From contig OZ020514.1 of assembly GCA_963971425.1 (NCBI GenBank), positions 39,841,158 through 39,905,157 on the forward strand: DNA of 64,000 nt, in the 5' to 3' direction. The position numbers and the translations under genes are program-made. The DNA is from Bryoerythrophyllum caledonicum (taxonomy: Eukaryota > Streptophyta > Bryopsida > Pottiales > Pottiaceae). Of the stretch, positions 3,393 to 54,699 are shown piece by piece. A model generated the notes under the pieces. That model made no database searches and was not told where the DNA came from. It was given only the letters and a program-made list of their open reading frames with translations. Positions within the stretch are counted from its first letter, which is position 1. Every line of letters starts with the position of its first letter.

Positions 3393-3752
3393 CGCACTTT
3401 AGCTCTAGTGGAGCTAAAGTGTGAGCAAATCTTCTTATTTAGTTCAGTGTGCTTAGTAATGGTGCGCACTTTAGGTCAAGTGGAGCTAAAGTGTGTGGAA
3501 TTGCCTTTTTGAGTTCATTGCACCTCTAAGTGATGGGGACATTTTAGTTCGAAGAGAGGTAGTGTGTGCAATTTTTTTTCCACTTGTGAGCACCATCATT
3601 TGAAACTCGTTATATATATTTTTTGCCAATGTGTATTCCACAAGGAGAATTGAAAATCTTTTAAATCAAAAAGGGCTCATCAAAATGTGTTTAGCTAATT
3701 CTCTTTCAAGTGGATATTTGTCCGTCATTTAGCTCACTTTTAGCTAAATTGG
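3393..3752. repeat. Palindromes CACTTTAGCTC...GAGCTAAAGTG downstream of copy A
   Basis: Inverted repeats with arms CACTTTAGCTC / GAGCTAAAGTG occur at 3393-3423 (5-nt loop) and 3464-3496 (one arm reads TTTAGGTC). Weaker relatives lie at 3536-3562, 3728-3752 and about 3970-3985. Another copy with the arms closed by CGACTCG is at 22671-22692, and a half copy (GAGTCGAGCTAAA) is at about 53-65. The motif differs in its outer arms from the one used around copy B but shares the CTCGA/TCGAG core. Confidence 0.6.
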
Positions 3753-4600
3753 AGCATGGTGTTAATCCGGGTTAATAGGATCGAGTGTGAATATTTAGCT
3801 ATTCATATTCAATGAACACATGTGGTATAAAAGAAGTGTCAACTAATGTGTTCTTCTTTTCAATATTATAGTTAGATTGATAATATAATGTTATCCGTAG
3901 TACTTATTTTTCTAGGGATTTTTGTAGAAAACATTACCTCCCAATTTAATTAAAACTCATATCCCTCCATATTGTAGAGTTTAGATGTGCACTTTAGCTC
4001 TTATGATCTACATGTGTTAATTTGGGAGTCGCTAAATCTCCCAATATAACAAATATGGTGTTGTGGACAAATAAGCAGTCCATTGTGAGTTATGCGCAGT
4101 AAGCCTCATAGCAGCAGAGACTGTATCCGTCACGCATAGAATGCCATTCAAATCCATGACAAGATTCAGCCACTTCGCTGGTGTGAACAACAACGGACAC
4201 AATTCTAAGAACAAAGATTTAAGACAAGACCAACACACAATATAGTCAATGGTAGCAATAAGTGGAAGTTACTTGATAAAATGCAGATTGAGTAATATGC
4301 AATGGAATTGCCATTGATTGCACAAATTCGCTCCCACATAGCGACTGAGATACAACTATCCCATTTGGAGGCTTCAATGCAAGACGACAGTGAACAATGT
4401 CATCCAATCCAATCTAAGAAACAACTAAAGAAAATGAATTGTTAAACAATTCTTTAAATTATGATAACTGTGTATATACAGAAATATACACCCCTCGTAA
4501 AGTACATCAAAAAGCATATGGATCCGACTCATGCATGCAAACACATCCAAATAAAACCTACTGAGTCTGTGGCTAAGCACAGTCATTTCAAAAAAACCAC
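3560..4600. other. A+T-rich spacer, no supported gene
   Basis: No domain was recognised in either strand. A 68-codon minus-strand frame at 4032-4238 shows no family signature; it could be the last remnant of the minus-strand gene at 4.6-11.5 kb. Several TTTAGCT half-sites are scattered here. Confidence 0.5.
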
Positions 4601-4642
4601 GGCTGCACTTCGTGATAAAACAAACAAAAATGTAATAATAAG

Positions 4643-6870
4643 CTAGCCAACCTTATCCACCTCAGATGGTTGTAGTTCGCGAGGCTCTGGAGACGGCTCG
4701 TAGTCGACGTGCTCCTCCATGCACACTTCCTCTTCCTCCACCGCAGTCTTTGAACAAGACGGCCCTTCTACAAATTGAGCGGGGACCGATGGAGTCGAAC
4801 CGCTAGGAAAAAAAGCACCACTTGCATGGACATCACGCTCACAAACAGCAGTGCCAGCGCCTTCTGCCAAATGTGAAATTGGAGTTCGATTGGAAGGCTG
4901 AGTATCCTTGGGTCGAGGATACTCTGAAGGCTCGGACGATGTAGAAGGAGTATCCTCGGGAAGAATTGGCGCCTCAGATACAAGGTCCGACGCAAGTCTC
5001 TGTGCAACCACAATGGAGACTTCTCCAACTGGGTGAGAAGAAGAACCTGTTTGTAATCTAGTCAAAGGAGGCTGAGGCTCAACCACAGACTTATCCTTGG
5101 TGAGAGGATAAGTGGAGGGATGAGGCACGACGGATTCCAATGGAGTAGTGGGGACTGGAACCGATATTTGAGCTTGCCGAGCAAGAGGTTGGTTGAGTTC
5201 CACCATCATTTACGGTTGGATCTCCGTGTGGATTGATGCCGCCAGCCTCTCCTTCTTCTACTCAGACTCCGCCCGCTGCTTCTCAAAAGAAGATTCCATC
5301 TCAGCCTATTTCTTCTAGGCAGCCTCCAATTGGGCCATGATAGCCTGCTTCTCCTTCAGCTCTTGGAGGCATTGGTTGTGTTCGTGCTGGTAAAAGTCAG
5401 CACCGGGTTTGTACTTCACAGGCTCCTTAGGGGCCGAAGCATGCCCCGCTGCATTGAAAAAGGCAGCATCAAAGTCGGAAGCGCCCTCCAATCCCAACTC
5501 AACCAACATTCCCACCACGGTCGGATCCACCACATGCTGAGATGAAGTGGGACGATCCCCACCTTCATCATCACTCGAGTTAGACGGCAGGATGATAGTC
5601 ATCTGTCTCAAAGGTACCAGCGACGTGAACCTCCGATGCGGAAGTAGTTTCAACCATAAGAGATTTGTCCGGACCGCGTTGAACTTCGAAATGAACGACT
5701 TCATCAAACACCAAAAAGTCATCGTCCGCGAGCAGAGGAGATCGGTGCATTGGCGATCTACTACGAGAACGCCAAGACGGCTGACCAACATCCAAGCTAA
5801 GGCTTGTAAGGTCGACGCTGTCAATGCTTCCATATAGATTGACGAGCAATGGGGTGGCATCATGGGGAGGCTGCTGCATCGGTGCACCGCGACTAGATGC
5901 CTTCTGGGTCTTGGGGGAGTCCTACCGCGATCTAGCACCAGAGCGTTGAGCACGCTGACAAACACGTTTAGCCCTCTTTGGCAAGGTTTGGGCCCTTGGA
6001 ACGCGTTCCTCAGGTGTTGCATGCGGCGTTGATGTAAAGGCACCTCCAACGTTGGATGGCATAGGCCCAACGTAAGCACAATCCTTGTGGATGAAATCAT
6101 TCATGTCCAACTGAAAAATCCGTACTTCACTTGATTCTTGTACTGAAGCTAGAAGGAGTTATCAATGAGACCTTAGAAAGATGATCTAAACATCTGCAAG
6201 AGACAAGAGAATACAAGTTTAGAAATCGGATAAGAGAAACGATGTAAACAAACTGAAATGAAATCAATAGTCTATCCTTGACTCGAGGATAAACGACATT
6301 GTTACCAATGACCACATACCTGATTGGCCAGCATGAACTTGGAGCCGCAAAATACTCCAAATACCTTCTCCTTTGGATTGTAGAAGTTTTGGAGTAACTC
6401 AAAGTAGAACTCCATCTGCAATTCCGAACCGTAGAGGCAAAGTTTGCCTCAAGATACTTATTCTTCTCCTTGTAGAAGAATGTATCCGGTAGAGAGTAAA
6501 ATTGCTTCACTTTCTCAATGAACACGGGAGCCTGAGGATGACTCTTTTTCAATGAGAAGAGAAGGTTGACATCCGCAACCTTTGCCCTGGAGGTCCCGTA
6601 ATATAGGCGTTCATTGGCCGACGATAAGTATGCCGAGGAGACGGGCAAATACCTTCACATCCTCTTCTCGGCAAACTTTGCAGCTTGCATCGCATGGTTA
6701 GCGGAGGAGGTGATCCGGATCCAAATATGAGGAGAGCTCATGTTTGGGGTACTCTTTTGCAACTTCATGGCTTTCATGAAGTCTGCAAAGTATGGCTCGT
6801 CCTAGAAGTCGTCCTTGGACAGCCAGCCAGGTACGTCACAGAGGTCGAGAAGTCCCACTGAAAACCGAGG
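4643..6870 (-). pseudogene. ParB/MTase-like gene copy I, C-terminal half (methyltransferase-like fold and low-complexity tail)
   Basis: Read from the minus strand. Coding-like sequence begins around 6870 (VPGWLSKDDF, then TAG at about 6812, then DEPYFADFMKAM) and continues with frameshifts through SLPDTFFYKEKNKYLEANF. An exon then ends ENFYNPKEKV-like: NPKEKVFGVFCGSKFM with donor GTATGTGG (exon end about 6320). This last stretch aligns with the motif X to motif I region of a beta-class amino-methyltransferase, and FCGS is reminiscent of the FxGxG AdoMet loop. The intron after it contains the palindrome TATCCTTGACTCGAGGATA (6273-6291 on the plus strand). Downstream pieces at 5922-6110, 5580-5879, 5315-5590 and 4643-5209 are rich in Ser, Pro, Glu and coiled-coil-like sequence and resemble the charged tails of copies II and III. 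Frameshifts and stops make it a pseudogene; exon joins are uncertain. Confidence 0.5.
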
Positions 6871-7682
6871 TGCCACCATCCAGAGCACCACCGGCCGAAC
6901 TCTACAGCTCCGAAGTAGAGCCGGGATCAACTTTTGCCCCGACAATGACCGGCCCCATTCTGGAAGACGTTGCCGAGCTCTGTCAACATGTGGTCTGGCG
7001 GGCAAGGATCCAGGAAGGTGAGATTAGGGAGCGGACAACCATGATCATGGCTATAATGGAAGAGGTGGGGACGAACAACTTTGTGGATCTCATCCCACGA
7101 CTCCATAAGTTGAAGGTCAAGGAGGTCTTGGTCCAGGAGCTGGAGCAGCAGCAAACCACCCTCACCCAAACCAATGTCCGGCTCTGGAAGCGTGTGGAGC
7201 AGGTGGAAGCTCCTCAAGACGAGGCCCAGCAAGCAAAAGCCGAGGCGGAAGCAAAGGTCCGGGCCACCACCCAAGCCTTGACGGAGGTTCGCGCCTCCCT
7301 CGACTTTCTGGTAGACACAGTCAACAGGGCTCTCCTCTACATTGAGAGCGTAGAGAAGGATGAGAAACTCAACAGGGGGCAGATCATCCAGTTTCTCTTG
7401 GACCACAGTTGGAAGATAGAGGAGGCCTGTAGCAAGATGTAGGAGTTGGTGAAGAACCTAACCCCCGCAACTCCAAAGGCACCGGACGTTCCAGTTCCAG
7501 AGGCAATATTTGCGACACCGATTAGAGCCAGGCCATCCGGAACTCCACCCGGACCTGCAGCCAGAACACCACAGACGTCAGCCGGAGGTTTCAATGACCT
7601 CATTGGGACTCCAGATTTAGTCTCTCCGATGAGCTGGAGCGGGGTGCCCTTCCCAAGCACGGAGACCCTCCAGAAGTGGTAG
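6792..7682 (+). pseudogene. Coiled-coil retroelement-type open frame inserted in ParB/MTase-like copy I
   Basis: An open frame of 216 codons (6792-7442) is followed after one TAG (7440-7442) by a further 80 codons in the same frame, ending at 7682. The product begins with Arg/Pro-rich sequence. It then has a long Glu/Gln/Ala-rich coiled coil (about residues 85-175, with VQELEQQQTTLTQTNVRLW) and a Pro/Thr/Ala-rich tail. No protease or reverse transcriptase is visible. It lies directly upstream of the dispersed repeat at 7.99-9.17 kb and has the orientation expected of the 3' part of a gag-only or truncated LTR element. It interrupts the minus-strand ParB/MTase-like gene, whose two halves lie on either side. 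The true start may be slightly downstream, because the first codons overlap minus-strand coding sequence. Confidence 0.45.
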
Positions 7683-7989
7683 AGTTTCATGCCGGAAGGC
7701 CTCTCACATGAAACCCCTCTATCCTTCCGAATTTTGTCAAAGTCTTCTTCTCCAATTTAATTGCGGGCGACCCCTCCCCTTCCTAGCCAAGCACCAAATG
7801 ACATGGATGTCAGTCCCAGCGGGAGTTTTCGAGACCTACCCAATCCTCGAGTCCAGTCACCATCACCTCAAACAAGCGCACCAACAACGAAGGATCCGGA
7901 AACTCCTTCCGGACAGAAGGACAAGTAGCCCAAGTCTACGCCGGAGCCGCGAGTGTCCACTCCAGAGCAGCCACATGCCAATGCGTTCG

Positions 7990-9169
7990 TAGAAGAGGTA
8001 ACCCCTAGGCATAAGAGTCTTTGGAAGAAAAACCAGATTATTCCGTTGTTAGGGTCTTTAGTCAGCTAGGTTTAGTAGCGATTAACGATGGGGCTTAGGC
8101 TTGCACCTAGCTACCAAACCGTAGGCTAAACAATACCCCAAACTAGTTTATAAGTTAGAAGCGGAAAAACTGGATCTCAGATCCATAAATTCCGGATCTG
8201 AGATTTGAAATCCGGATTTTTAGGAATACGATCTTTTTACTTTTAAGATAAGATTTCCCGGATTTCAAGCGGATAAGGTAGGTTTTTAGATTCAAGAGTT
8301 TAGTTAGTACTTAATAGATGAGTTATAGTCAGCTCATCATCTTGTTTTCTCTCATGAAGAGTATTTTCCATCTATCACATTTTCTCTTCTTGAACTTGTG
8401 GTGATTAAGTTTTCTTTCTTGTAAGGGAACAGATCCATTGTGGTTGGTGTATTGTAATTCAAGTTCTAGTGTAAGAGTGTTAGAAGGGTTGCATTTAGAA
8501 CGACCGGTGGAGCTTGCATTGGGAGACCTCCGGGAAGAGCTGTAGAGAGAGATTACGTAGAGACCTGACAGAAGCCCGATTTGTATGTCTAGAAGGAAGT
8601 CTATTTACAAAACAATAACACTCATTCAATAGAACCACTATAGTACCAACCAGAATACTGTTCTAGTCCGGATCAACCTCTGTTTGACCATATCTGGATG
8701 GCCATCCGGATGATGTGAGAGTGTAGGTCAAGCTGTAACAACTATTCACCGGTTAGCGGAGTAGGAGAGTAGGTGTCTAGCCACTATAAGTCACGAGGCA
8801 GTGGGTGTCTAGCCACTTTAAGTCACAAGACAGTGGGGAATCCGGCCACTTATACAAAATAGGATTAGTGGATCCCAACCACGAGTTAAAAAACTCCGGA
8901 AGAAACTCCTTCGGAGGTCATCCGGGATCCGGAAGGATCCGGAAACTATTGTAAGACCTCCAGAATCCGGGAGGATGCGAATGGTAGATTAGCGGATGAA
9001 TAGGAAAGTTGACCAAGAAAGTAGTGTTTGGTAGTTAGTTAGTTTTTACTTATCGGTTAGGAAAGAAACAATAGGTCTTTGTGGGAACGAATTTAGAGCA
9101 GATACTTTGGGTACATTTAGCTACAACTAAGTGCTATCCGGAGGAGTACCTACTCTACAAACTACAACA
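7990..9169 (+). mobile_element. LTR-like dispersed repeat (3' end of a retroelement), rich in TCCGGATCC motifs
   Basis: This stretch matches, in opposite orientation, 45249-46680. Shared landmarks are CTAGGCATA near the start, TAGCGATTAACGATGGGGCTT, the block about cells of 'gtgtctagccactataagtcac' type near 8770-8820, TGTGGGAACGAA near 9082, and the end CTACAAACTACAACA. Many partly palindromic TCCGGATCCGGA-like words occur inside. The right end coincides with the point where minus-strand coding of copy I resumes (about 9170). This supports an insertion. The partner LTR and target duplication were not identified, so the exact element type is open. Confidence 0.55.
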
Positions 9170-9170
9170 A

Positions 9171-11462
9171 GGGTGAACAGGTTCTTCATGTACAAAAACT
9201 TCTTGAAAAACGGAAGAACGTTTGGGAACTTCTCAACCAAATGAGAAGCTCATTTTAGCTTCCCCGCATAGGTTAACTTCATCGACCAAAAATCCTTGTC
9301 GGGTTGACAGAGAAGCATGTTGTAAGTAGTTGAAGACACACGATGTGTCTCCTTCCACTCCTTCCACATAGCGTTGTCGATCGACCCATCAAGAAGTAAA
9401 AACAACAAAGATGGGTCGATGTGCACTAGCTCTTGGATGACGACGGGCTTCTTCTTTCTCTGATCAGCCTACTCTTTCTAATGGTAGCGCGATCCATGAA
9501 CCACGTTCGTCTTACAAAGCGTGATCTTTGAATAATTGTGCCCGCGTTCACTGCCGACTAGGTAAGTGAACAAATCTCTTAAATCCTGGTCGGACAGATG
9601 ATCCAATCTCTTAAAAAAATTGCGGTCGATTGTCGAAGGCATGAAATCCCTAGCATCCTTGTATGGACAAGTTGTGTTGGGATTTACAATGTCTCCGCGG
9701 TTGTGCTGATCGAGAAATGCTTCCCTGAGCTGGAAAATGTCATCGGGAAGTGTAATGACCTTGATCTCGTTCGTAAGGTCCGATGACTTGTTCACTTGCT
9801 TCCCTTCCCTCGTGGGGTTGATGTCCTGGAAGCGCGTAACAATCAGCTTTGCAAACAACTGCAAAACATCATAAACAACATTAGTCAACTTAATCAAGCA
9901 CTAGATAACAGACAATGCCAAAGGAGGATATTGCATAAGAGAGTATCCTCGACTCAAGGATACTTTGATAACTGGCGCAGATACTTAAATAAATTAATCA
10001 AGCACAAGATAAAATACAATGTACAAGGAATGACAAGAGAAATGGCATAGAGAGTATCCTGGACTCGAGGATAGCTAAAGAACTTGATCCTTATCAAGTA
10101 CGTCTCCTGATCGAAGTTGGCACCATTCAATTGGATGTTGCCCTCGTCATGTTGGTAGCTGGGTCTGCCAAAGTTAAGCCAGATTCTCCTGCAGATTGAA
10201 ATCTAGTTTCTCCATGTAGGCTGGGCATGATCAAGGTAGTTGGTGTGGTTGTAGAACTTTAAAATCCTCTGCAACTTTAGAGGATCCGTTGTCCAAACAA
10301 CATATGCATCCCAACAACACAAGTCCCGTTTGCGCTGCTCCCTACATTGGTCGACACGTTGAAGTCTTTTGGAAGCTTTGACACTGTATTGCCCGTTGAT
10401 AAGCATAAACTTCCCATCCTTGATTTCGTTTCAAGAATTGCGCTTCCGCGTGATCGGTTCTCTAGCGTCATCAATTGGGCAAACACAAATCTTCTGCCGC
10501 TCGTTCATTTCTCCAAGTTTGACCAGGAAGTCCATCAAGTTGCGGACTATGCCCTCCTCCATCCCGCAAACTACGAACTATGCTTTGGCGGGCACACATT
10601 ATTCGATTCCCACGGAGAATGTGGACTCAAATGGGAAGCAAGTCTTGCACTCCTCCCAGAAACAATCTTTGCGACCCCGTTACCTTCTCAAAGTCCACTT
10701 GAGGGCCGTTGCAAGATTTAACTAGAGTAGAAGCCCTCGTAACAGTTGAGGTTGAGCTCCCACCGGCATTGGCAATCATCTTCCACTTTGAGGTTTGCCG
10801 AGATTGGATCCCCTCTTAGAAGCCCTCTGTGGAGCTCCGTGACTCGTGCTTTGAGGCGCATCCCCCGCTTCTGTGGTATCGTCGCCGGTTGTTGCGCTCT
10901 TTGACTACAGTCGACGTCGTGGAGGTGGAGCGACCAGAGCCAGTCGGGTCTCAAAGTTCGACAAGAGCTAGTGAATGCAAACCAGTCTTGTGTTTACCAT
11001 CTCAGCGTCGTCGTTTGACCATGGACTGTACTTCTTGAACGCCTGTCTCAACAACCCTTGCCCATTTCTATCGGCACTCTCAAGCAATTCGTTGAAGTCA
11101 AATTGTCTGAAAGTGTCATCCACTTTCACAATAATCGAGTGAAGGTGAGGTAGGTCTTCTCTAGCATCGTTCACGGCCTGGACACCTAAAACAATGTAAT
11201 TGCGTCGACGCTGCTCCACGAACGTCACTCTCTCATTTCTGTTCAAAGGAATGTATGGAATTTCCTCTTTTGATTTGAAAGAAAGGAGAACGCATCTCTC
11301 CGACTTGAAGAAGGACCAGCCAATGATATCGTTGGTGAACGACCACAACCTTCTGTAGTTCTCGACAACTTCGTCGATGAAAGGCAACGGGGCAACGGGA
11401 TTTTCAAATTCCTTGATGAAGTACGCTGACCCCAAATACTCGTAGTCATCGGCAGGATCCAT
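9171..11462 (-). pseudogene. ParB/MTase-like gene copy I, N-terminal half with ParB-like domain
   Basis: Minus strand. The first exon-like frame starts at ATG 11462 (MDPADDYEYLGSAYF) and runs about 155 residues; a GTAAAC donor fits at about 10993, just before the stop at 10968. A Thr/Ser-rich linker follows (about 10750-10880). The ParB-like segment lies at 10203-10420: KFMLINGQYSVKASKRLQ aligns with the G-x-H-R-x2-A signature strand-helix of ParB domains and with copies II and III. Next comes 9478-9897 (139 codons, FFKRLDHLSDQDLRDLFTY). A further frame at about 9230-9460 (PVVIQELVHIDPSLLFLLLD) ends at the inserted repeat. The plus strand carries the TATCCTC palindromes at 9943-9963 and 10055-10073, between coding segments where introns are expected. 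Frameshifts and the insertion show it is dead. Confidence 0.55.
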
Positions 11463-11571
11463 CGGGAAGTGGTAATTTGTGTGGAGACATTTGGAGTACG
11501 AGTAAGATGTTTACCACTATCATCAATAGATATCAGTTGTTTTCAAGTTAGATAGTTTGATACCGAATAAC

Positions 11572-12220
11572 CATCCTCGGCTCAAAGATACAGGCGTTCT
11601 TTGAATTGTATTTTAAGATGTAATATCATTACAGAGACCAAAATCATTGACTTTCATGCATTTTTTATGGTTGTAAAGACATAGGTTGAATTGTATCCTC
11701 AACTCGAGGATATTGTGAATTGATGAGAGGGTGATGCCATCTAATTTACTTCTTGCATCAACTTAAAATATATCTTTTTTATTCTGATTTTTGAATAGTT
11801 TGGTAATATCCTCGATTTGAAGATGGACCAAATACCTATGGATTGACTAGTATCCTCAACTCGAGGATACTTTGATCTAATATGAAGGTGTTTTTAGTCA
11901 AAATACATCATGATCAATATAAAAAAATTCATCATGGTAACTTTTCTGTTGAGTTGAATTATCTTTGATTTAAGAATGAGTTGTATGCTTTAAATTGACA
12001 CTTATCCTCGACTCAAGGACACTCTGGACTCCTATGAAGAGATCATTAGTAAATTCACTTCATGCGGCAGTAAAAATAGTTCTTGCTTATTCAGAATTTT
12101 TTATAACTTACTTTTATCCTCGATTCGAGGATGAACTATAAGCTTAAGATTGACTCTTATCCTCCACTCGAGGATAAGCTACTAGTCCAAGGTCTATCTC
12201 GTATCCTCAACTCGAGGATA
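11572..12220. repeat. Cluster of TATCCTCGANTCGAGGATA palindromes upstream of copy I
   Basis: Clear copies are at 11694-11712, 11851-11869, 12003-12021, 12115-12133, 12158-12178 and 12201-12220. Degenerate copies are at 11572-11591, 11806-11826 and about 11950. Each is a near-perfect 19-bp inverted repeat centred on the TCGA core, and the sequence between copies is not repeated. The same motif lies inside copy I (4902-4922, 6273-6291, 9943-9963, 10055-10073) and upstream of DUF7869 copy B (18.4-18.95 kb), and I found no convincing copy elsewhere in the window. They look like dispersed binding sites rather than a tandem satellite. Confidence 0.8.
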
Positions 12221-12239
12221 AATTGTGATCTCTGTTGAA

Positions 12240-13250
12240 TCCCAAACCCTAATCCCAGAAATGACGGATTATATTATTGAGATGAGATTAAACTTAGACT
12301 TCTGCATTGCAACCCACATGATATGAAAAATTAGTACCTTTTGAAAGAAGTTGGAGTTCGCTGTGTGTTTGTGCGATGCAATTGCACACAGTGGACTTGA
12401 GAAATAGTTTAATGTGCACAAAAGTAATCAACACAGAATGATACACAATGAAACACAAAACACATGGAAATGTGAACTTAGCAAACTCTACAGTCAAATG
12501 TTACTACTCAAATGCAATCCAATGTCTTCTACACCTTCAAAATCGCTCACTAATGAACTAAAATTTATCACAAAAATGACAATGCGTTGTAGAAACCCTA
12601 AACCCTCATTGAATCTTGAACTATGTTTCATGGAAAAATAGTCACGAAATGAAACTCTGAACACACTATATATGTAACCCTTAATGCACCTAAACAATCA
12701 CATTAACTAACCCCTCGCAAGAGAACAAAGTTAAATAAAACCCTAACCAAACCAAACAAAACTAAAAGAAAAACGAACTAAACCTCACGATCATAGGACA
12801 TACACCTCACAAAATCTAAACACACACCTCACACCTCACACTACACACACAACACAAAACACACCTCACACCTTACAACACACACACCTCACAACATACA
12901 CTACAACACACACCTGACAACACGAAACCACAGTACACACCTCACAACTCACAACGTACACCTAACCGAAATTGATACACAGAGGAGGTTGCGCAAAAAC
13001 ATTCACGCGAAGAGTGCGCATCAGAAACAAGTTAAGAGAAAAGGAAGAGAGAATGGGGAGAGAAGTGAGGAAGTTGCAGTGGTTCACCACGCCGCCATAT
13101 GCCGTTTCGGGAAGCGGGCAGCGGGTAGGAGAAGAGGGCAGCGGGCAGCAAGAAAACGGGCAGCGCTCAAGAAAAACAAGTTTTTAGTTTTTAGATTTTG
13201 TTCTTTTTGGAAACAAGCAAAGGGGACCTTTACTTCAAAGGAGACTTTTT
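12240..13250. other. Non-coding stretch with CA-rich simple sequence
   Basis: 12780-12960 is a degenerate run of ACACACCTCACA-type words. Short open frames at 12.9-13.25 kb have no recognisable signature. The stretch lies between the 5' end of copy I and the foldback region. Confidence 0.5.
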
Positions 13251-13352
13251 AATCCCAAAGGTTTACACCACGTATTGTAATAGAAAAATATAAAGTAAAA
13301 AAATAAGTCTCAAATATATGTGGAGAAGAATATTTTTTCGTGGTTCTTTGGC

Positions 13353-14092
13353 CAACTACACTAACGATGGCTTTTAGTGTAGTAGACACCAAATACAAAC
13401 CCATACACTAATTATAAAGTTAACAATTAATGTAGTGACAATACTATACACTAAATGTCAACTACTACACTGAATGTCAATTCTATAAATAGTGCGACAC
13501 AAGGTTTTTTACTTGTGTACATCAAGAGTATGAAACCTAGAAATTGATAATATGTACATTTTGAGCATCAAAGTAAAGAATATTTTGAGTGCATGTAGAA
13601 AAACAAAAATTTGCACGAGGAATGTTTAAAAAAAATAGAACCTAGAAATGGCACAAATGGAAAGTCCCCAAATATGGACATCAAAAAACATTCATATAGA
13701 GAGAAAATGAAACTAGAACTACAAGACTAAAAAAATAAGAACTTTGATTTAGAAGAGAAGAGGGAAAAGAAAGGAAAATTGGAAAATAAATCAAACATAA
13801 ATATCTAATAAAAATAGAAATTTCCATTATATACTCACTAGACGGGTAGAATAAATGTATGGCGGCCAGTAGGCGGTTGATTGGGGACTCACACTATTTA
13901 TCAACTTGTTAACAAATTTTGGTGGGTGGTTGATTGAGGCAAATACAACGGGTACTAGGGTAGGTGGACAATTGAAGGATAATATTCATGACAATGGCAG
14001 CTAACACTAATTTGTAACTTGTTAACAAACAATGTACTAGGGTAAATACACAATTTGTACTATTACACTAAAAGCCATCTTTAGTATAGTTG
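13353..14092. mobile_element. 740-bp TIR element nested in the left foldback arm
   Basis: Termini 13353-13385 and 14058-14092 are inverted repeats of about 33 bp beginning CAACTACACTAACGATGG. A possible TGGC duplication flanks them. The other arms of the foldback lack this insert: the corresponding junction near 16370-16395 shows only a few extra bases. No coding sequence inside. Internal TACACTA words repeat the terminal motif. Confidence 0.6.
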
Positions 14093-15579
14093 TGGCAATG
14101 TAAAAATATTTTACTATGGATAAAATGCATTTTTTTGCTACAGACAATAAATATTTATGGAAAATATAAAAGAAAATGTATACACTTATTAGTATTCAAA
14201 ATCTCAAATATAGTAGTGTGTCCTAGCAAAAGTTTTTGGAGTTGCTAGAAGTGCCCCCAAATAAACGAATTTTTAGAAATGGAATATACTCTTTCATTGA
14301 AATCCAAATTGATATAGAATGATAAGGTTCAAAAACTTATTTTCAAACTGTGTAGAGTATTTTGAGCCAGTTTAGAAAACTAGTGTAAAGTAAAAAAATA
14401 CAATGGAGAAATCAATATTCAAATCATTGGGAAAATTTGAAAAAGGAGAAATAAAACAAACTTTATTGCAGCAAAAAAAACCCCTCATATCAAAAAAATA
14501 TTAAAAAAGCATACAAAGTGGATTTAAATTCTTTATAACACCCAAGGAATTGAAGTAAATGTACAATATAGGTCTAATTGATTATTCTAAATGGTATTGA
14601 ATTCAAAACTTAAAAATGAATTTGTTCACTTAATAAAAAAATTAATGCTATCCATAAATAATGTTCACATAGTACTAAGAAGTTTTATTTAAAAGTGTTG
14701 TTGATTGTAATGTAGCTTCATGGATAATTCTGATACTTTAGAATACACAATTACAACTTCAGTTCAATAAAAATCTATAATTTGTACTTATGCACTAAAA
14801 TGTATGTATGTATATATATATGTATAGTCATGGGCAGAAGAGGGAAATGGGACCCTTAAGGTGCGCATTGTGATCAAATTATTTGTCCATAGGATTGCAA
14901 ATAGAAAACCGTGCAAAATAATTCAAGAAATAAAGAAACTGTGTTCCCTCATGACTTTTATTCAAGATAACAAATATGATATTCCATTTGCGAATAAATG
15001 CATGAAAATAAAAATGTACTTTGACATTTATACCATAAAGATATATATAAATAATAACATATATAAATTCACATGTAGAAGCCGAACATTGGTTTTCCCA
15101 TGGAATCCATGATCAAATATAAATGTTAACATTTCTTATCTTTTCTTGGAAAGCAAAAGTAACATCGAGAGGAATTTAAATTGCAAGCAACTAGGTTGAT
15201 CATACACCACATAGCAATTTATAATATCCAAAGCTCCAAATGTTTTTGTAAATTACTAAAATTAATAAATCTTTAAAACCACTTTCTTAAAACCGAACTA
15301 TTAAAATTCAATTTATAGTAAAATGTGTGTCTAAGACACACATACATTGACTCACACATAATACACACACACTCACACACATAGAGTTAAAGTTGACAAA
15401 TGAGAAGAAGAATAGGTATCAATTAAAGTAAATTTGTCAATTTCTACATAAAAGATTGTAACTTTGATTTTGTTTGACCAAAGAATGCCACTTTTAAAAG
15501 TAACTTCTCTAGTACTATGTGAATAATATTTATGGATAGCATTTGGATAACACCAAGTGCAATATATTCACCAATGTGG

Positions 15580-15645
15580 ATTCAAGTAGAACATATTCAC
15601 CAATGTGGATTCAATGTGGATTCAAGTGGAATTCAAGTGGATATA
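15580..15645. repeat. Short tandem repeat of ATTCACCAATGTGGATTCAA units
   Basis: Two full and several partial copies of CACCAATGTGGATTCAAGT lie in the loop-side part of the foldback right arm. Confidence 0.6.
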
Positions 15646-16049
15646 AATCTTTATAACAATAAGTGAATTTGGATTTCAATGAAAGAGTTTATTCCATTTC
15701 TAAAAATTTCTTTATTGCGGGCAATTCTAGCAACTCCAATAACTTTTGCTAGGACATACTACCATATTTGAGATTTTCAATACTAGTGAGTGTATACAAT
15801 TTTGTTTATATTGTCCACTAGGGTTGGTACCCGTCATCCCCACGAGGAGAGCGAAGGGCGGTATGTTAAATTTACGTTTGTGTGTTTTGTATTTTAAAAC
15901 CTATAAGCTCAAATCGAATCTAAATGGAAAAGTACTTATATTTTTGGAGTGCATGTAAACGTTACCCTAGTTTAAATCCACTCCAAAACTAAAGTACTTT
16001 TGCTTTACATTTGCATTTGGATCGACCCTTTGTATACATAAGTGTCACT

Positions 16050-16250
16050 TACCTAATAGAAGAGGAGAAAATCCTTCACATCAAGAGGTCGAAATGAAGA
16101 GTCATTAGGTTACTACCTAATATAGGAGGTGAAAACCCTTCACATCAACAGGTCAAAATCAAGAGTCATTAGGTTACTACCTAATATCAAGAGTCAAGAA
16201 GAGTGCATCACCGTGCCTCACCCTTCACATCAGGAGGTCAAAATTAAGAA
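16050..16250. repeat. Tandem repeat, about 64-bp unit, about three copies
   Basis: The unit contains CCTTCACATCAAGAGGTC and GAGTCATTAGGTTACTACC. Copies start near 16070, 16135 and 16220, the last one incomplete. It lies within the right arm of the first foldback and has no counterpart in the left arm, so it expanded after the arms formed. Confidence 0.65.
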
Positions 16251-16299
16251 AGAGAGGTCACGGCAACGGTAGATAGATAGAATAACGCCTTTTATTTAG

Positions 16300-17760
16300 G
16301 TAATCAATCATTTATTTTCTGTAGTGAAAAAATGCATTTTATCCCAAGTCAAATATTTTCACAAATTGCCACAAATAGTCAGCCAAGGATGTAGAAAAAC
16401 ATAAGTCTTTTCTACATATAATTTTGACACTTTAAATTTTTTACTATTTATTAGTTCTATTACAAGACGTGGTGTAAACCTTCTTAGTGACCGTGGAGAT
16501 TTTCATTCTAAAGCATACTTTGTTCCCAAAACATTAAGACATGAATTGGCATTATTCCAACCTACACTCCTTGCACAATTTTTTTGAACATGCTACACCC
16601 CTTCTTTACCTCTTAAAAATGTGTAACAAGAATCAATATCATGCTTATTACCATGATGTTAATGGCCGTAGACCTTGTGTAGTGTAAAAATGGGACACCA
16701 AATGAGGTCAAAGTTCGCTAATCCACTAAACGTCGAGATGGAAATGAACCATTTTTTCTACTTCAAACATTGTAATCTTCCAATACGTGCGGTCAAAGTT
16801 CATGAAATTTCGTGAGCATGTTATTCCTTAAGTATTGATTGAGATCCTTCGGTTGGAACTAGATATACAAATCTTTGTTTCCTTCCTTAATTATCGCACT
16901 AGATTTTACAACTTTGAAGTATTTTTGGAGTGAAATTGATAAGAAAATATAGGTTCTAGATTTAAAATAATAATTGCCGTAAATTGCGAAGAAAATGTAA
17001 TTTAACCCCTAGTGTACGGCCACAGTTTTACACCAAAAACACTTCAAACGTGTTGGATTCTAGTGTAATGAACAAAGAAAGAAACAAAAACTTTGATTTT
17101 TAGTCCTAACTGTAGGATCTCAAATAAGACATATAAAGTAACATACTCTCATTATTTCATAAACATTGACCGCACGGATTGAAAGATTATAGTATTCAAA
17201 GTCATGCAATTGGTTCATTTCCTCCATGCGTTCAGTGGATCAGTAGACTTTGACTTCACTTGGTGTCAATTTTTTTCACTACACAAGGTCTAAGTTCGTT
17301 ACCATCTTCTTAACATGATGTTAGTTCCTTACAACTAATTTTTAGAGGTACAGGACGAGTGTAGCAAATTCAAAACAACTGTGCAAGGAGTGGAGGCTCA
17401 AAATTTATTAATTCACACTTTAATTTTTTTTGTGAACTTAATATGTTTTAGATTGATAATCCAAATGGTCAATAAGAAGGTTTACACTACATATTGTTGT
17501 GGAAAAACAAAAAGTAAAAAATATAAAGATATTTAGGTTTTGTGTGGAAAAGAAGAAGTTTTTTTGGTACCTTGCCCGACAATGAGTGACAATGTGTGAA
17601 AATGTTTGACTTGGGTTGGTATGCTATTTTTTACTATAGACAAGAACTATTTATCAACAATATAAAGGGAAATAATATTACTTGCAAGTATTGAGAATCT
17701 CACATGCAATAGAGTGTCCTAGCAAAAGTTTTTGGAAGTGCCTGAGGTCCCGTCCACCCT
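16300..17760. mobile_element. Second foldback sharing arms with the first
   Basis: 16390-16950 is repeated inverted at about 17020-17570. Examples are GTTTACACCACG with the complement at 17480, CTTGCACAA with TTGTGCAAG near 17380, and TTTGTTTCCTTCCTT with AAGAAAGAAACAAA near 17085. The hairpin turns near 16985. The outer right end (17580-17760, GTGTCCTAGCAAAAG) again matches the left arm of the first foldback. The region therefore has arm order +, -, +, as in nested or serially duplicated foldback elements. Confidence 0.65.
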
Positions 17761-17769
17761 ATTTGAAAT

Positions 17770-18430
17770 TCAAAATCCTATAATTAGTTCGTCGAATGTC
17801 GAGTTTAGGAAAACATTGTTTTTCCATTAAAGTCTTGGTAACATCTTTTAATGGGAAAAAATTTCAAAGAAGAAAGTTGGAAATTTACACCATAGGAACC
17901 TGACCGAATTCGCAAAATCCTAGAGCCGTTGGAAAGGAGTTTTCCCGCCGAGCGCCGATTTTGTCCTCCGCTTCATAGAAGACTACCGTATGCTCATTTT
18001 CAAAAGTTCATTTCCTACTCTTGCACCTGCTGGACCCTCTCTTCTCTCTCAACTGCGCTCAGTTTCTTGCTTATTTTAGAACCCCACAGTAGTCGTCAAT
18101 AGTATGTCTGAGGTTATGTGAAGTACGTTTGAATTTCTTTTTGTTTTGCGCATCCTTGTGGAGAGCTCAATTTCTTCTCAGAGGTACTTCTCCATTAAGA
18201 GGTTGTTCTTGAGCATTTGAGGGCTACCTAACCCAAGCTCTTAGGCCGTTCGCATCACCGCAGTTTGTTCACAGTATGCGTACTATTTATTTTGTTGTCG
18301 AAGTCATAGTTCTCGGTGTAGTACTTCTAATTCACTATAGAATTTGCATGCAATTAGAAGGAAGTGTGCTGTGAATGCTCCAACACTATTCAGAATCACT
18401 GTAGCATTTCATTCAACTATTTCCAAACTA
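17770..18430. other. Spacer upstream of DUF7869 copy B, no supported gene
   Basis: No coding signature. It probably forms the distal 5' flank of copy B. Confidence 0.4.
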
Positions 18431-18435
18431 AGCAT

Positions 18436-18933
18436 TTATCCTTGAGTTGAGGATAACACTAACTCTTGCTAGTTCAGCAGTCGATCAATGTATCCTGTGA
18501 ATGAGATCCTCTTTAAAAGACTGAAAATTTTATTTATTTGGTTCAGATTCACTATAAAGTACTTAAAATTAAAATTAATTGATTTATCCTCGATTCAAGG
18601 ATAAACCCAAGTTATACAAAAAAGACAATGCCAATTTGAAATTGAATTATTTGTGTTTGATCACTAGAAAAGAGATATTGTCTACACTCCTTTTATCCGC
18701 GAGTCGAGAATAAGCTTATAATCATCGATAATCAACCTCCTTGATTTTACTTTGACTTCAATGTATCTTATCGAGTACTCTGTAGTCTGATGATTTTTTT
18801 CGAAACAATGCACAGGTGTCGCTCTTTCCGTTGGATTCATACTATTAGTATTCTCGACACGAGGATGTTGTTTGGAATAAATTTTCATGTGTATAACTAG
18901 TTTCTCTCATTCATATCCTTGAGCCGAGGATAC
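18436..18933. repeat. TATCCTCGANTCGAGGATA palindromes upstream of DUF7869 copy B
   Basis: Copies at 18436-18455, 18584-18603, 18692-18713 (degenerate), 18847-18868 (degenerate) and 18913-18933. They end about 150 bp before the start codon of copy B. They are the same motif as in and upstream of the minus-strand ParB/MTase-like copy I, so the two divergent genes share sites. Confidence 0.75.
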
Positions 18934-19080
18934 TCGGTGGAGTTTTTGGATATTGTCTTTGTGCTGGAATATTCTTCTCCAAATTTATATTGCTTTGGAC
19001 ATATATGGTGCTCACTAATTTACATATTTCAATGAACTTCATACCATAACTAATGTCGCTTCAAATGTGGTATTTTGTAG

Positions 19081-21864
19081 ATGGAAGGAGACTCATTTGA
19101 TGTCAGAGATCGAGTTCCACCAACCTTGCCTCCCCGTGCTGCTCTTTGTGAGGATATTCCTCGCGCTGCCTGGTTTTCGAAGCGCATTATCCTTCGAAAC
19201 ACATCTAGGAATAACGTCGGAATCAGATTATGTCAGAGTATTGATTCTAGTTTAATTCCTGAAACTGGAGGCCGACCTCTTGGAGATGACCATGTTGTGG
19301 TTCTGATTGTTAAATCCTTAAATAAGGATGATATTCCTTTGAATTGGATGATTGCTCCCTGAGCATGGCCAATTCGACAGGTCTTTCTTTGTAATATGAG
19401 TTTATACGACCAAGAGCAAACAAACATTTACAATGCCACTCTTAAGGTATTCGGTCAGGGTCCAAGAATTGGTCTTCCACAGTATGAGAGAAATCGTCAT
19501 AGGCAAGTGCTGCCTTCCCCACCAGAGAAGGAAGTACTCCTTTCTGTACAATCGATCAACCTTGTTGTGAGCGTTGTTTATTGTCCAAGAAATTGTACTC
19601 AACGCTTTCCATGCAGTTCAATTTTTGTTCTTTGAACGCAAGTTCACAATGACATTGGAGGTGTATACTTTTGGAAACATGTTTACTTGATGTGCATAGG
19701 CAAATTCACATTGATTCCAATGGCAACCATGTGGTGACGCTCAATGGAATTGATGTATGCCAAGATGCATGGTATACAATCATGGAGATAGCCGAGCCAT
19801 ATTCTACCAATACAAAAGTGATGCGAAGGATGAAGTGCGAGCGATGGCACACGACAATCCTGGTACTAAAAAACCTCGCACCCATATCCTCCAAGCAATT
19901 GCTACATTGCTCATAATAGTCCTAACAAGACTACTACACTTGGCACTGGGGGAAGGTTGTTTTGAAACATCCTCCTTCCTCCTTTCAATTGAGTTCACTA
20001 TTGCCCAAAGTGAATGAGGTGAATTCAAGATTTGGCCTCAAACCAATATCTTTGTCTGGTCTTAGTCAAATTCAGAGCTCTGAATTTGAACATTTTTCCA
20101 CTAAGGAATTGGGTGACAATTTTGCTCGTTGCAGTAAATGCGACCAATTGAAGCAATTGAAGAAGGCTAGTACGCGAGGGTCCTCCGCATTCAATATGTG
20201 GGATACCAAATTGAAGTTGCATCAAGCCTCCCAATAGACTCATCGTATTTTATATTATGGGAATCGAAAGAATTGGAAGGATAGACCAGATGACGTTGTT
20301 TGCATCATCCACGATAAAATGGATCACAACAAAACAACATCTCTCCATTTTCTAACAAGAATAAGGCGACGAAGTCCTTCATGAAACTCTTTGTAGCTGT
20401 GACTGGAATGATTGCTCATGGACATGGAGATGTCCGTTATGCGCATTATAGTTTGACATTTACTCCACCGACTCGAATCACACTATTGGATCCGTTGCTA
20501 AGTTACTTCGGGACTTAGAGAGTCCACCGATGTATTCTTCTTGTGAATTATTTGCAAGGAGAGCTTTTCCTCTGTCTGAGGCTGTGCGTGCGGATGCCAA
20601 TGTGTGCCTTGGATCCTTTGCGGCTCCACCGGTTGAACCTATTCCTACAAAACAATTACCACCAATTCTCCAAATGCAATTGGATAATGCCGCAAGAGAC
20701 AATAAGAATAGATTTGTGTTTGCTTTCTACTCCCTACTTGTTCATTTGGGTATTTTCCGGGAAGTATGCGTGAACTTCTTACTTGTTCGTCATACTCACA
20801 AGGATATTGATGCAATGTTTGGGAGATGGCGTACCAAACTTAAGTCAAATAGCTATCCAACGATTCCACTCTTGATGAAGTCATTCATGGATGCTGAAGG
20901 AAAGCCAATTATTCCACATCTCATTGAAGAGGTGCCCGACTTCAAGGGCTTTCTTGATGGATATTTGTGCATCAACAATGAGGCCCTTACGGGTCATACA
21001 AAGGGCCAACAGTTCAAGTTTTACAAGGACTCTCATGGTTTGCCAAAGATGCAATACAAAATTCTTTGTACAGACAGGGATTGGTTGCCCGAGGAGAATG
21101 GAGGAATTCAGTTGTAGAAAATGATGGCAGATGGTAGACCAATATTGCCTCATGGGCAGCCGCTTCCTCACATTCTGCATCGTCATGAGAATTATGACGA
21201 GGTTATAAAGGATATTTCTGGGTTTCTAAGACTTTGGGAATCTATGGCAAATGAGGATATCTCAGGTGAATACAGGAGGAAGAATGAACATATAATGTCC
21301 TATGAAAGAGGTGTAAAGGCTACTCTTGAGGTGCCATTGGAAGAATTGACTTCCCTACGAGAGGGATTTTTGCCACTATCTAGATATGCTCCATCTATAA
21401 TGGATGAATACGATATAGATGGTACATTCAGGGAGGAGTATGCAAAAGACCCTCCATTCATTGGACAACAACGTCATTGTCCGCCTCCATCGTCCCAAGT
21501 GGGTAGAGATGTATACCAGGGCTATGTACTTGCGGTGCGCTTTGCTGATGGGGATTTGTGCCCATTTTGGATTGCCTTGGCATTGACTGATCAACATCCA
21601 GATCGTAAACATTCTCATAAGATTAAAGTGCAATATTACAAACCTGCATCCCAACGTCATGTGGACTTAGAAACGTACCAAGGGTGGGATTCTAGTCATG
21701 GGAATAATTGGGTAGAAGAATCTGAATTTGAACCAATCTAGGTATATATAGATAGCATTATAACTGCTTGGAAGCCTAGGGTCCTTGGGAACACGAGATC
21801 TTCTAGGCTCAAAATTTTGAAATCACAAATAGAAATAATCCAGACATCTTTAGCTAAATATTAG
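19081..21864 (+). pseudogene. DUF7869-type transposase-like gene, copy B
   Basis: Starts MEGDSFDVRDRVPP at 19081. An in-frame TGA is at 19360, after which the frame continues with AWPIRQVFLCNMSLYD. Frameshifts follow near 19.56 and 19.66 kb, 20.0 kb, 20.33 kb (after HDKMDHNKTTS) and 20.47 kb. TAG codons lie at 20235, 21115 (a W position in the other copies) and 21739. The conserved order is WPI block, cysteine cluster PCCERC (about 19560), GIDVCQDAWYTI (about 19755), CSKCDQ (about 20136), HDKMD (about 20308), QLDNAARDNKNRFVFAF (about 20683), HTHKDID (about 20792) and a C-terminal tail to TAG at 21862. The glutamate of HEDID is lysine here, so a DDE-type site would be lost. Its partner upstream is copy I of the ParB/MTase-like family in the opposite orientation. 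Confidence 0.7.
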
Positions 21865-23325
21865 GTTTCAAGAGGTTTTGTGGTTTTTTATGACAAGAGT
21901 TATCCTACTCATTCGAAATAGGTGGGGGTGCATGTTCTTATTTGAACTTGTGTTGTTTTGGACTAGATATTGTACTAAGTATGTACTGAACATGGGGGTC
22001 TGTCGTAGAATTGAGACTTTGAATGTTTGCGTAGCATACATGTAGACAAAATTAGATTAGAATTTGTAGATTCATATAGTGATGTTTTGTGTTGCTTCAA
22101 TATCATTAAACGTTGTCGTTTGTTTGTTTAATTATTGATGGATAAATTGTGGTAAATATTTTGTGTTTGATTAATTGTGCATTTATCCTTGATGCATTGA
22201 TACTTTCTATTCAAATAAGAGATTGAATTTATTTCTACAATATGTGCTAACTTTTTAGTGATTGGTATTTCAATGACCTTGTTGTTTGAAACACTTACCA
22301 CATCCTGAAATTCGTAATTTTTATATCCCTTTAAATTGAGAAGACATGCGTTTTGGGTGGCTTGTAAAGTATTGAATATGTCTTATTTTAGTCCAATTTT
22401 GAGCCTTGCTAGGGATGCTCAAATTCATTGCCGCTTAAATTTTCATGGAATATTTTTATTTTTGTTATGATCATTTTTTTGGACGTATTAGTTGGCAATT
22501 TTAATCGAGCTTATGTCTCAATTTAATAAATAGTCTCAATTTAATAATTAGTCTCAAATTAATGAAAGAAAAAATTGACTATAATTAGACACCATGATGA
22601 ATTGAGACTCTGAAATGTCTCATTTTAATGAATATGGCGTTCATGGATGTATGTTAGCTGATGCTTCATCTTTAGCTCGACTCGAGCTAAAGTGTGCGCA
22701 AATACAAAGTATGTCAGTACACTTCTGCTAAGTTATATAGTCATTCAAAGAACATCCATAGACCCTAATATGAATCATCTTGCGTCTACTAACGAGCACC
22801 TCCCCAATCCGTGGAAAAGCTTACTAACTGTTTCAATCACTTAGGAACCTCGCGCTTCGAGGTTCTCAAGTGGTTGGAACGGGATTGAAGCGCATGCACG
22901 GTTTATAAAGTTGCACGAGAAGTAGACATGAGGTGAGATACCTGACAATGATTCACGACAGTAATATTATCGGAAGCAATCGATGACAAGCATAGTGAAA
23001 TAGCTAGAGTGTGGCAAAATTTACACAAAAGCATTTTACTTTTGATACAATAGAAAGTCGACCGAGACGAGCATCGATAAACCCAATGATTATACTTGCA
23101 TCTAATCCCATGCAATCTTATAAACGAAGCAACAACATATTACCTGATCCAAGCACTTACAAACCTTTAATAGTATGGTTCTTAAGTGGTTGGATCCAGA
23201 AGCAAGTTATTAAACAATTATTGAAATTGCACAAGGAGACACGAGCAGAAATCATAGTGCCACCGGTACAACTCGAAGAACTTTATGAGCTATTATCGGC
23301 GAATTTAGTTTTTGAACTGTTTAAA
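21865..23325. other. Spacer with two isolated palindromes
   Basis: A TTTAGCTCGACTCGAGCTAA palindrome lies at 22671-22692 and GAACCTCG...CGAGGTTC at 22845-22865. An open frame of 106 codons at 23011-23331 on the plus strand has no recognisable domain, and its end runs into the LTR, so it is not supported as a gene. Confidence 0.45.
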
Positions 23326-23528
23326 TGTTAGGGATCCATTCATGTCGACGCTCTTACATCATGAACCAAGGTTTCTTACAGGATATTCTTTAGTAATATT
23401 CATAAGTAAACAAGATGACAAGTGAGAGGGAAGGCCTCCTCTCACTTGCTATAAGGAAGACACCACAACCGTTCTAACTACCTCTTTGCTAAGCACTAGT
23501 AAGTCCAGACGAGTGTCTACTCGTAACA
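23326..23528 (-). repeat. 3' LTR of Ty3/gypsy element
   Basis: A 203-bp direct repeat, about 98% identical by eye to 29129-29331. On the minus strand it begins TGTTACGAG and ends CCTAACA, giving TG...CA ends. The adjacent GGGGGGGTAA (plus-strand 23529-23540) is the expected polypurine tract. The flanking 5 bp (TTAAA) do not match those at the other end (AATCT), so no target duplication is seen. Confidence 0.88.
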
Positions 23529-27096: not shown

Positions 27097-27228
27097 AAAG
27101 CCAAAATATAATTTTCTATATTTATATAAGAGTAGTTACATGTAGTAGAGTCATTTGAATTTGGGCATAGAGGTGTATTATGTGCCTCCTTATTAGTGCC
27201 CGGGTACTGCCTCCAAGTGTTTAGTCCC

Positions 27229-28273
27229 GGGCTGCTCCTTTTCCCAAGCCTTCATCGCCAGTAGCAGCCAACGTAAGGGGCTTGGAAGGATTAGTAGGAC
27301 ACCGTGAACGTATGTGGCCCATCTTCCCGCACCCCCAACACCTTCCTTGACGTTGATACTCCAATCTGTCGGCCGCTGTTTTAGCAAGAGCCGTGGATGC
27401 GGTGTACGTGGCATCTTATTCCATGGGAGTGGGACCGGTTGACATCGAAGGTGGCCGGGATCGTGCAGCATATTCTCGTGGTGCCAAAGTAGACCCCAGA
27501 GGTCGCCAATGTTGTTGTCGCATCCATAGTCGATCGTCAATTCATGAAGCCATAGACATCCATTTGTGGAGAGTGCGAGGTTGAGTCTCGGCGGTTGCTA
27601 TGGAGTCGAGAAGGTTGTCCTTTAAACCAGCGCGAAACCGAGCCACGAGACTTGGCTCATTCCACTCCACTTGGGCCGCATGTTTGTTGAATGTTGAGAT
27701 ATAAGTAGCCACGGCGCTAGTCTGTCGAATGTTTGCAAGGCGGTCCTCAGCATTGCCTCGTCGGTCTATCTCGCCGTAAACAACCACAATAGCTCCCCGG
27801 AAGGCCTCGTAATTGTGCAATAAATCATGAGGTCTTCCTTCATCCAAGGCTTGAAGGATGGGCATAGCCCAGTTCTGGGCCGCCCGTGTTAAGTAGGAGA
27901 GAGCATACGCTACTTTGTCTTCGTCAGAATTATAAGTGCCAGGGTTGCCTCGAAAAACCAGACGAAGTTGGGCAAACCACTTGTACACCTCTCCTCCCTT
28001 TTTGCCGGTGAACTTATCCGGTTTCGCCACCTTGAGTTCTTTGCCGCGGTGGTATTCCCCTCGATACATGTTGGGAGTTGATACCGCGGTTTCTCCACCA
28101 TGCAATAGTGTAGAAAGAGGAGGAGTTGCTCGCTCAGAAATTTGTTGCACCATATGAAGAATCGCCGCTTGGAAGACGTTCTGAATCTGTTGTTGTATAA
28201 ACATAGCCCAGTCGGGCCCTACTCCATCCGGCACAGGCGGGGCACCTTTCGTGTTAAGTCTTTCTTGATCCAT
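27229..28273 (-). pseudogene. Ty3/gypsy gag with CCHC zinc knuckle
   Basis: The 243-codon frame 27542-28273 begins MDQERLNTKGAPP and contains a capsid-type region (KPDKFTGKKGGEVYKWFAQL, ALSYLTRAAQNWA, FRAGLKDNLLDSI). A frameshift near 27540-27500 separates it from the nucleocapsid part, where CWGCGKMGHIRSRC (about 27345-27300) is a canonical CX2CX4HX4C knuckle, followed by a stop near 27229. Gag therefore spans two frames and is broken or relies on an unseen variant. Confidence 0.8.
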
Positions 28274-29128: not shown

Positions 29129-29331
29129 TGTTAGGTATCCATTCATGTCGACGTTCTTACATCATGAACCAAGGTTTCTTACAGGATATTTTTTAGTAAT
29201 ATTCATAAGTAAACAAGATGACAAGTGAGAGGGAAGGCCTCCTCTCACTTGCTATAAGGAAGACACCACAACAGTTCTAACTACCTCTTTGCTAAGCACT
29301 AGTAAGTCCAGACGAGTGTCTACTCGTAACA
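29129..29331 (-). repeat. 5' LTR of Ty3/gypsy element
   Basis: A 203-bp direct repeat of 23326-23528 with about four differences seen by eye. It is the 5' LTR because the coding strand is minus. Confidence 0.88.
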
Positions 29332-34345: not shown

Positions 34346-34429
34346 GACCATGAATCCGTGCAAGAAGGTTATGAAACAACACACCGGTAATTAGCATTCA
34401 GTAAAAGCATCTGATTATCTTTGTAGTGC

Positions 34430-47750: not shown

Positions 47751-47846
47751 ATCCCTGCCGATGATATTGAGGTTGGTCATCCAAATCGACTCTACATACA
47801 CACAACTTCTCATTCAGGACATCAGCCACCAACCGAGCATCCACCG

Positions 47847-54693: not shown

Positions 54694-54699
54694 ATTATG

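Follow-up and report, generated by a model that had tools for sequence, protein, structure and literature searches.

Family-specific palindromes in a moss DNA transposon and a ParB-fold/methyltransferase-fold protein as their candidate reader

The VANDAL elements of Arabidopsis are transposons that encode a sequence-addressed regulator of their own. VANC21 and VANC6 are reported to recognize family-specific motifs (PMC5735166), and the VANC/VANDAL system provides a functional parallel in anti-silencing (PMC5735166, PMC10398659). Among proteins related to ParB, VirB has been described as an antisilencer (PMC10770331) and KorB as a long-range silencer (PMC11790492). Here we describe the I/B element, a DNA transposon in a 64-kb stretch of the moss Bryoerythrophyllum caledonicum (contig OZ020514.1, positions 39,841,158 to 39,905,157; hereafter the window). 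The element carries two divergent genes, gene I, with a ParB fold and a DNA-methyltransferase fold, and gene B, which encodes a DUF7869 protein presumed to be the transposase, together with many copies of a palindrome, P1. These palindromes are probably cognate sites of the gene I protein, through which the element would control its own family only.

Like VANDALs, the I/B element is a DNA transposon of a plant in which a short motif, different from one family to another, occurs many times in the non-coding regions; its arrays have grown partly by tandem duplication, and it probably encodes the reader itself. Family-specific arrays in non-coding regions were found for P1 and for a second palindrome, P6, and three others (P2, P3, and P4) are abundant. 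By contrast, the I/B element has a DUF7869 gene, 26-bp terminal inverted repeats (TIRs), and a 4-bp target site duplication (TSD); VANDALs, which belong to the MULE superfamily, have a TSD of about 9 bp, a length that the I/B copies do not show. The I/B motif is a palindrome of ~19 bp, whereas the VANDAL motif is YAGTATTAY. In place of VANC, the candidate reader here is a protein with a ParB fold and a methyltransferase fold. Pfam scans of the element frames found DUF7869 and no MULE model, although a diverged relation is possible. The VANDAL precedent offered by an earlier note on this DNA is hence a good functional analogue, but membership is unsupported, given the other transposase-like gene and the 4-bp TSD. 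The I/B element is also similar to KDZ/Plavaka elements, large eukaryotic DNA transposons that combine a transposase with a chromatin- or DNA-modification gene; their TSDs are 7-8 bp in Kyakuja/Zisupton and 2-3 bp in Plavaka, compared with 4 bp here (PMC12730594). No TET/JBP match was obtained in Pfam scans of the frames tested.

Sixteen P1 sites with up to three mismatches were detected in the window, spanning 4903-12220 and 18437-18932, against a mean of 0.02 sites across 100 dinucleotide shuffles. The earlier note had placed the motif in the introns and tail of gene I and upstream of both genes, with no convincing copy elsewhere in the 64 kb; all of these positions were confirmed, and no further site was present at the same threshold. 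The centre base was C or G in 175 of 198 sites from 13 stretches, the window being one of them, and the consensus was accordingly written as TATCCTCGASTCGAGGATA. A symmetrised weight matrix added degenerate sites at 11572 (score 20.4), 5092 (13.9), and 11960 (12.4) and still weaker P1-like sites at 123 and 22184. CpG decay was rejected as the main cause of site variation, since, of 188 mismatches, CpG transitions at 4 of 18 positions account for just 56. In the genome (437 Mb in 894 contigs, the window lying on a 65-Mb contig), the scan that had been proposed as a check gave 6,106 P1 sites with up to three mismatches, compared with 175 for the pattern read backwards, which served as the control for all genome counts. 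The shuffles and the reversed pattern rule out a satellite or chance origin of P1.

We then compared the window with other copies, drawn from 20 stretches of 10 kb around genomic P1 clusters and four flanking pieces. The window aligned piecewise to other copies by blastn from 4063 to 22641, across most of the AT-rich middle, leaving gaps at 6866-9170 and ~15.82-16.31 kb. The first of these shares inverted segments (73-86% alike) with 45510-46613, and the two are therefore copies of another repeat in the window. Copies of the element are ~20 kb long; four with both ends fetched measured 20,239, 21,230, 19,468, and 19,441 bp. In these four, the two termini (AACRCCATATTCATTAAAATGAGACA inward) were identical at 21-25 of 26 positions, and perfect 4-bp TSDs (TGAA, AGTA, CCTT, and AATA) flanked every one. 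Copy D is inserted at CCTT in a DUF7869-family gene, the uninterrupted form of which lies in the window near 1633. The window copy is intact at its B-side end, at 22641, and its I side is apparently cut by a neighbouring P3-family element, judged from one end, whose terminus is at 4062. Divergent genes with a P1 array upstream of each were present in the eight stretches that contain both arrays (the window, A, B, C, D, E, F, and H), about 6.0-9.6 kb apart; the AT-rich middle of the window (12221-18436) has no P1 site, and stretch B has a single site between its arrays. Each element has about 15-22 sites. These results show that both genes belong to one mobile element, as the note had proposed. 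Genome copy A16262 contains in addition an NIF/FCP1-like frame (PF03031, E 1.8e-7).

The claim that P1 is element-specific was also supported. A set of ~54.7 kb of DNA outside elements, 45.4 kb from the window, contained no site with up to three mismatches (54,894 letters including 150 N at joints; stretches B, F, and L025 used whole and untrimmed). Furthermore, all seven other genomic P1 sites examined (L005, L006, and the isolated sites L045-L049) lay in DNA that matches element copies even with the sites masked. A host promoter motif is made unlikely by both results. It is quite unlikely, too, that a host factor, possibly a methyl-CpG-sensitive one, binds the sites and that the element borrows host regulation. 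Symmetrical CpGs in P1, P2, P4, P6, the palindrome of locus L043 described below, and many P3 sites would suit such a factor, although some P3 sites lack them (e.g., 3395 in the window). However, several distinct abundant palindromes would require several host factors, P1 is absent from the outside-element set, and for P1 and P6 the palindrome type follows the element's own protein, as shown below.

The sites have outlasted the DNA between them. Copies A and D share 84% identity in gene B and about 67-73% in gene I. In their upstream regions, no blastn match with E of 0.01 or less was left once the P1 sites were masked, indicating that the sites were kept as the spacers turned over. Within three subfamilies, identity was higher in sites than in spacers (91.0 vs 78.8%, 89.7 vs 86.1%, and 96.5 vs 94.2%), slid placements equalling the real sites in 5 of 819, 46 of 812, and 88 of 1362 cases, respectively, with in-site identity biased upward because the sites were picked as near-consensus. 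The earlier description of unique spacers and no satellite holds broadly in the window, but the B-upstream arrays of sister copies contain local duplications, an 83-bp step plus a repeat offset by ~605 bp, so arrays grow partly by tandem duplication. Such duplications are what one would expect if local duplication or replication slippage had spread the palindromes with no protein bound. We consider that origin very improbable: between subfamilies similarity is kept by the sites alone, within families site identity exceeds spacer identity (in part through the near-consensus picks), and a related family has a different palindrome at equal gene positions.

Gene I type proteins gave no ParB or methyltransferase match in Pfam, one weak ParB match in PHROGs (E 0.048), and no relative in IMG/VR. 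The folds were modelled on relatives, P0122 for exon 1 and P0124 for exon 2; the absence of other folds from the match lists excludes nothing. The P0122 model contains the sulfiredoxin-like fold of the ParB N-terminal domain, and its structure matches at ranks 1-12 were all ParB, Noc, or KorB. The P0124 model contains a beta-class DNA methyltransferase fold, like the N6-adenine methyltransferases M.BceJIV, CcrM, and RsrI. In the alignment, judged by eye, DLRxxPG stands for DPPY and GxYxGSK for FxGxG (motif I); because both look degenerate, this region is possibly a non-catalytic or altered module. The frames downstream of exon 2 (4643-5209 and 5315-6100) had no match in the Pfam scan. Gene I is similar to ParB-parS, KorB, VirB, and Noc in linking a ParB/sulfiredoxin fold with palindromic sites upstream of genes; unlike these systems, it lies in a eukaryotic transposon, with a methyltransferase fold in the next exon and many sites per element.

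Gene B matched DUF7869 (PF25273) at 129.3 bits against a gathering cut-off of 26, and the A16262 copy reached 155 bits. The sequence alignment gives HDKMDH, DN, and GHTHDDIDA as conserved motifs, which bear on a possible acidic triad of a DDE/D transposase with an RNase-H-like fold. Among its 120 listed relatives, an organism name is attached to seven, three from Ceratodon purpureus and four from Physcomitrium patens, which makes a moss the most likely host. The genome yielded 3,608 first-look DUF7869 candidates, and all 150 that were scored exceeded the Pfam cut-off, whereas 14 control genomes gave no match. No mention of DUF7869 was found in the open-licence papers searched.

A second type of ParB exon was identified among three contigs (L050, L051, and L052) that are binned with the uncultured cyanobacterium AVDCRST_MAG81, encode ParB-exon relatives, and are, we infer, plant contamination. 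L050 contains P1 five times and encodes P0122, which is 74% identical to the moss stretch L026; P1 sites 5984 in L026 and 3397 in L050 occupy the same gene position as 10055 and 9944 in the window. The ParB exons of L051 and L052 were 27 and 26% identical to P0122; these contigs have no P1 and instead eight sites each of P6 (TCAGCTCGASTCGAGCTGA), where exon 1 ends and again where exon 2 ends in both, and also upstream in L051 (the upstream part of L052 is mostly missing). P1 and P6 thus occupy equal positions in gene I, at the exon ends. P6 occurs in the B. caledonicum genome at 8,404 sites, compared with 2 for the reversed pattern. The match between protein type and palindrome was measured on contig C1, 4.77-27.87 Mb, with exact sites among those listed and P6-type exons of at least 45% identity; four below that value lie in the span (22.88, 23.14, 26.17, and 26.18 Mb). 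An exact P1 lay within 2 kb of seven of 10 P1-type exons and of none of 10 P6-type exons, whereas an exact P6 lay within 2 kb of six of the 10 P6-type and none of the 10 P1-type exons. Random shifts gave about 0.1 each, at most 2. These results indicate that the palindrome follows the type of ParB exon for the two types. P1, P6, and many P3 sites have the core CTCGASTCGAG in common and differ in their outer arms. A further group of ParB exons (e.g., C1:52520869-52521987) is 42-44% identical to the P6-type query, many of them with 502-amino-acid open frames; among the sites listed, no exact P1, P3, or P6 lay within 2 kb of its members at 22.88 and 23.14 Mb.

Palindromes with exact 7-bp arms that recur at least three times in the window form only three families, P1, P2, and P3, and none arose in 5 shuffles. 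P2 (AGCCGGAGATCTCCGGCT) has 14 window sites with up to three mismatches and recurs in a divergent layout like that of P1 at DUF7869 copies C and D. In the genome, it occurs 3,128 times, compared with 5 for the reversed pattern (up to two mismatches). Two of the minus-strand frames beside P2 (30.2-34.1 kb) were scanned and had no Pfam match. P3 (CACTTTAGCTCNANTNGAGCTAAAGTG, arms CACTTTAGCTC...GAGCTAAAGTG) lies in the tail of DUF7869 copy A (3395-4062) and at 22668, just outside the P1 element, and has the highest genome count of the palindromes counted, 11,700 vs 0 reversed (up to three mismatches). Its arm, TTTAGC...GCTAAA, presumably resembles the half-site of the KorB operator. At four DUF7869 loci picked by domain, L041 had a palindrome of its own, P4 (GAGGGGTCGAGGCCTCGACCCCTC), with three exact copies and two near ones there and 412 sites in the genome (0 reversed), and L043 had two copies of GGGGTGTGCGCGCGCACACCCC, at 1355-1376 and 1946-1967, about 2.4-3 kb upstream of a frame at 4344.

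Site maintenance across turned-over spacers, the match between ParB exon and palindrome, and the ParB fold modelled for gene I relatives strongly suggest that P1 represents dispersed candidate sites for a dimeric DNA-binding protein. The gene I product would be that protein, its dimer recognizing the palindrome within gene I introns as well as in the 5' regions of the two divergent genes, loading there, and controlling transcription or chromatin of its own element family. By analogy to VANC, VirB, and KorB, the protein may spread from the sites and cause anti-silencing or autoregulation specific to the element; of the two, we put anti-silencing somewhat ahead. Alternatively, the DUF7869 transposase could bind the palindromes, for regulation of its own gene or assembly of a transposition complex. 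Sites in both upstream regions agree with this, and DUF7869 frames stand beside P1, P2, P3, P4, and, by position, the L043 palindrome, a wider range than that of the ParB protein detected. We nevertheless regard binding by DUF7869 as unlikely and favour gene I, because of its ParB fold, a fold of proteins that load at palindromes and work over a distance, because the intron-position sites belong to the ParB gene, and because, in the four complete copies, some 3-8 kb separate the sites from the termini and no site falls in the TIRs; neither observation on site position is decisive.

Several points weigh against gene I as the binder. The ParB-like protein and DUF7869 are linked in one element, and this linkage on its own does not tell them apart as binders. 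The motif GxxR contacts cytidine triphosphate in ParB, but the corresponding position in gene I reads GQHS (G357-Q358-H359-S360), invariant in 14 aligned sequences, so the chemistry of the clamp is possibly different. In the exon-2 model, the predicted local distance difference test score is mostly below 50 over the first ~240 residues, and this poorly modelled stretch between the two folds is the expected place of the DNA-binding helix-turn-helix, which, unlike that of ParB, is not resolved in the model. One of the seven P1 positives is the query's own locus, leaving six of nine without it. Three of 10 P1-type exons (with 4-8 stops each) and four of 10 P6-type exons (three with 2-4 stops, one with 1) have no exact site within 2 kb. 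ParB and methyltransferase profiles matched none of the minus-strand frames beside P2; the same partner was therefore not found there, and the partner protein is not identical everywhere. Finally, two of the four domain-picked DUF7869 loci (L042 and L044) have no palindrome within the stretch seen, L043 and L044 each including a 200-base run of N.

If gene I is the reader, the I/B element would provide a second instance, seemingly unrelated to VANDAL/VANC, of a transposon-borne sequence-addressed regulator, one whose fold is known from the partition of bacterial chromosomes and plasmids. A transposon with such a regulator is known from VANDAL; the different transposase-like gene, the 4-bp TSD, and the ParB/methyltransferase-fold protein set the I/B element apart, and among the open-licence titles and abstract openings listed, none described a ParB/palindrome transposon system. 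More tentatively, and at somewhat less than even chance, the system may be a eukaryotic counterpart of ParB-parS on transposons, in which a family-private protein/palindrome pair coevolves, loads on promoters and introns, spreads, and keeps chromatin open or dose in check. Families with different palindromes in one genome make joint change of a DNA-binding specificity and its many sites directly testable. The protein/palindrome pairs might each serve as an orthogonal tool to address plant chromatin, and hundreds to thousands of sites per palindrome may matter for the chromatin of this genome.

Table 1. Features of the I/B element and of other palindrome-bearing regions in the window
Feature	Positions	Strand	Basis or detail
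End of neighbouring, apparently P3-family, element	3395-4062		P3 sites 3395, 3467; degenerate 3540, 3725; terminus ...AATATGGTGTT at 4062
P1-family DNA transposon (I/B element)	4063-22641		blastn to other genomic copies, in pieces
Remnant of NIF/FCP1-like phosphatase frame	4095-4181	-	tblastn with copy H frame, E 5.5e-5
Gene I downstream frames	4643-6100	-	Open frames; align to other copies
P1 in gene I tail	4903-5110		Site 4903; degenerate 5092
Gene I exon 2, DNA-methyltransferase-fold region, split by nested insertion	6130-9900	-	Profile matches 9130-9900, 6130-6801
P1 site after gene I exon 2	6273-6291		
Nested insertion in gene I	6866-9170		No alignment in copies A, C, F, G
P1 sites at gene I exon-1 end and after	9944-10073		Sites 10055, 9944
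Gene I exon 1, N-terminal domain and ParB/sulfiredoxin-fold domain	9957-11510	-	Decayed into several frames; profile matches 10971-11510, 10630-10815, 10434-10577, 10206-10430, 9957-10202
P1 array upstream of gene I	11572-12220		Sites 11694, 11807, 11851, 12003, 12115, 12158, 12202; degenerate 11572, 11960
AT-rich middle between divergent genes	12221-18436		Composition; aligns piecewise with copies A, C, F, L025
P1 array upstream of gene B	18437-18932		Sites 18437, 18585, 18694, 18849, 18914
Gene B, DUF7869 protein, presumed transposase, decayed	19081-21861	+	PF25273 E 1.7e-37; profile matches
B-side TIR	22616-22641	-	Inward AACGCCATATTCATTAAAATGAGACA; matches termini of complete copies
P2	34428-39667		Upstream of minus-strand frames, 7 sites (34428-35008); at the 5' part of DUF7869-related copy C, 3 sites (39367-39667)
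P2 in 5' part of DUF7869 copy D	47537-49267		Sites 47537, 47652, 47733, 49250

Other features were observed in the remainder of the window. Two long minus-strand open frames (485 and 730 amino acids) at 50973-54720, without a Pfam match, are convergent with DUF7869 copy D. A long terminal repeat retrotransposon occupies 23313-29331; its 216-bp repeats are 96% alike, and its reverse transcriptase frame lies at 25627-27135. A tandem array of a 13-bp AT-rich repeat lies at 28535-28725. A DUF659 match (E 2.8e-26), which we take to be a domain of hAT-like transposases, was found at 43605-44276.

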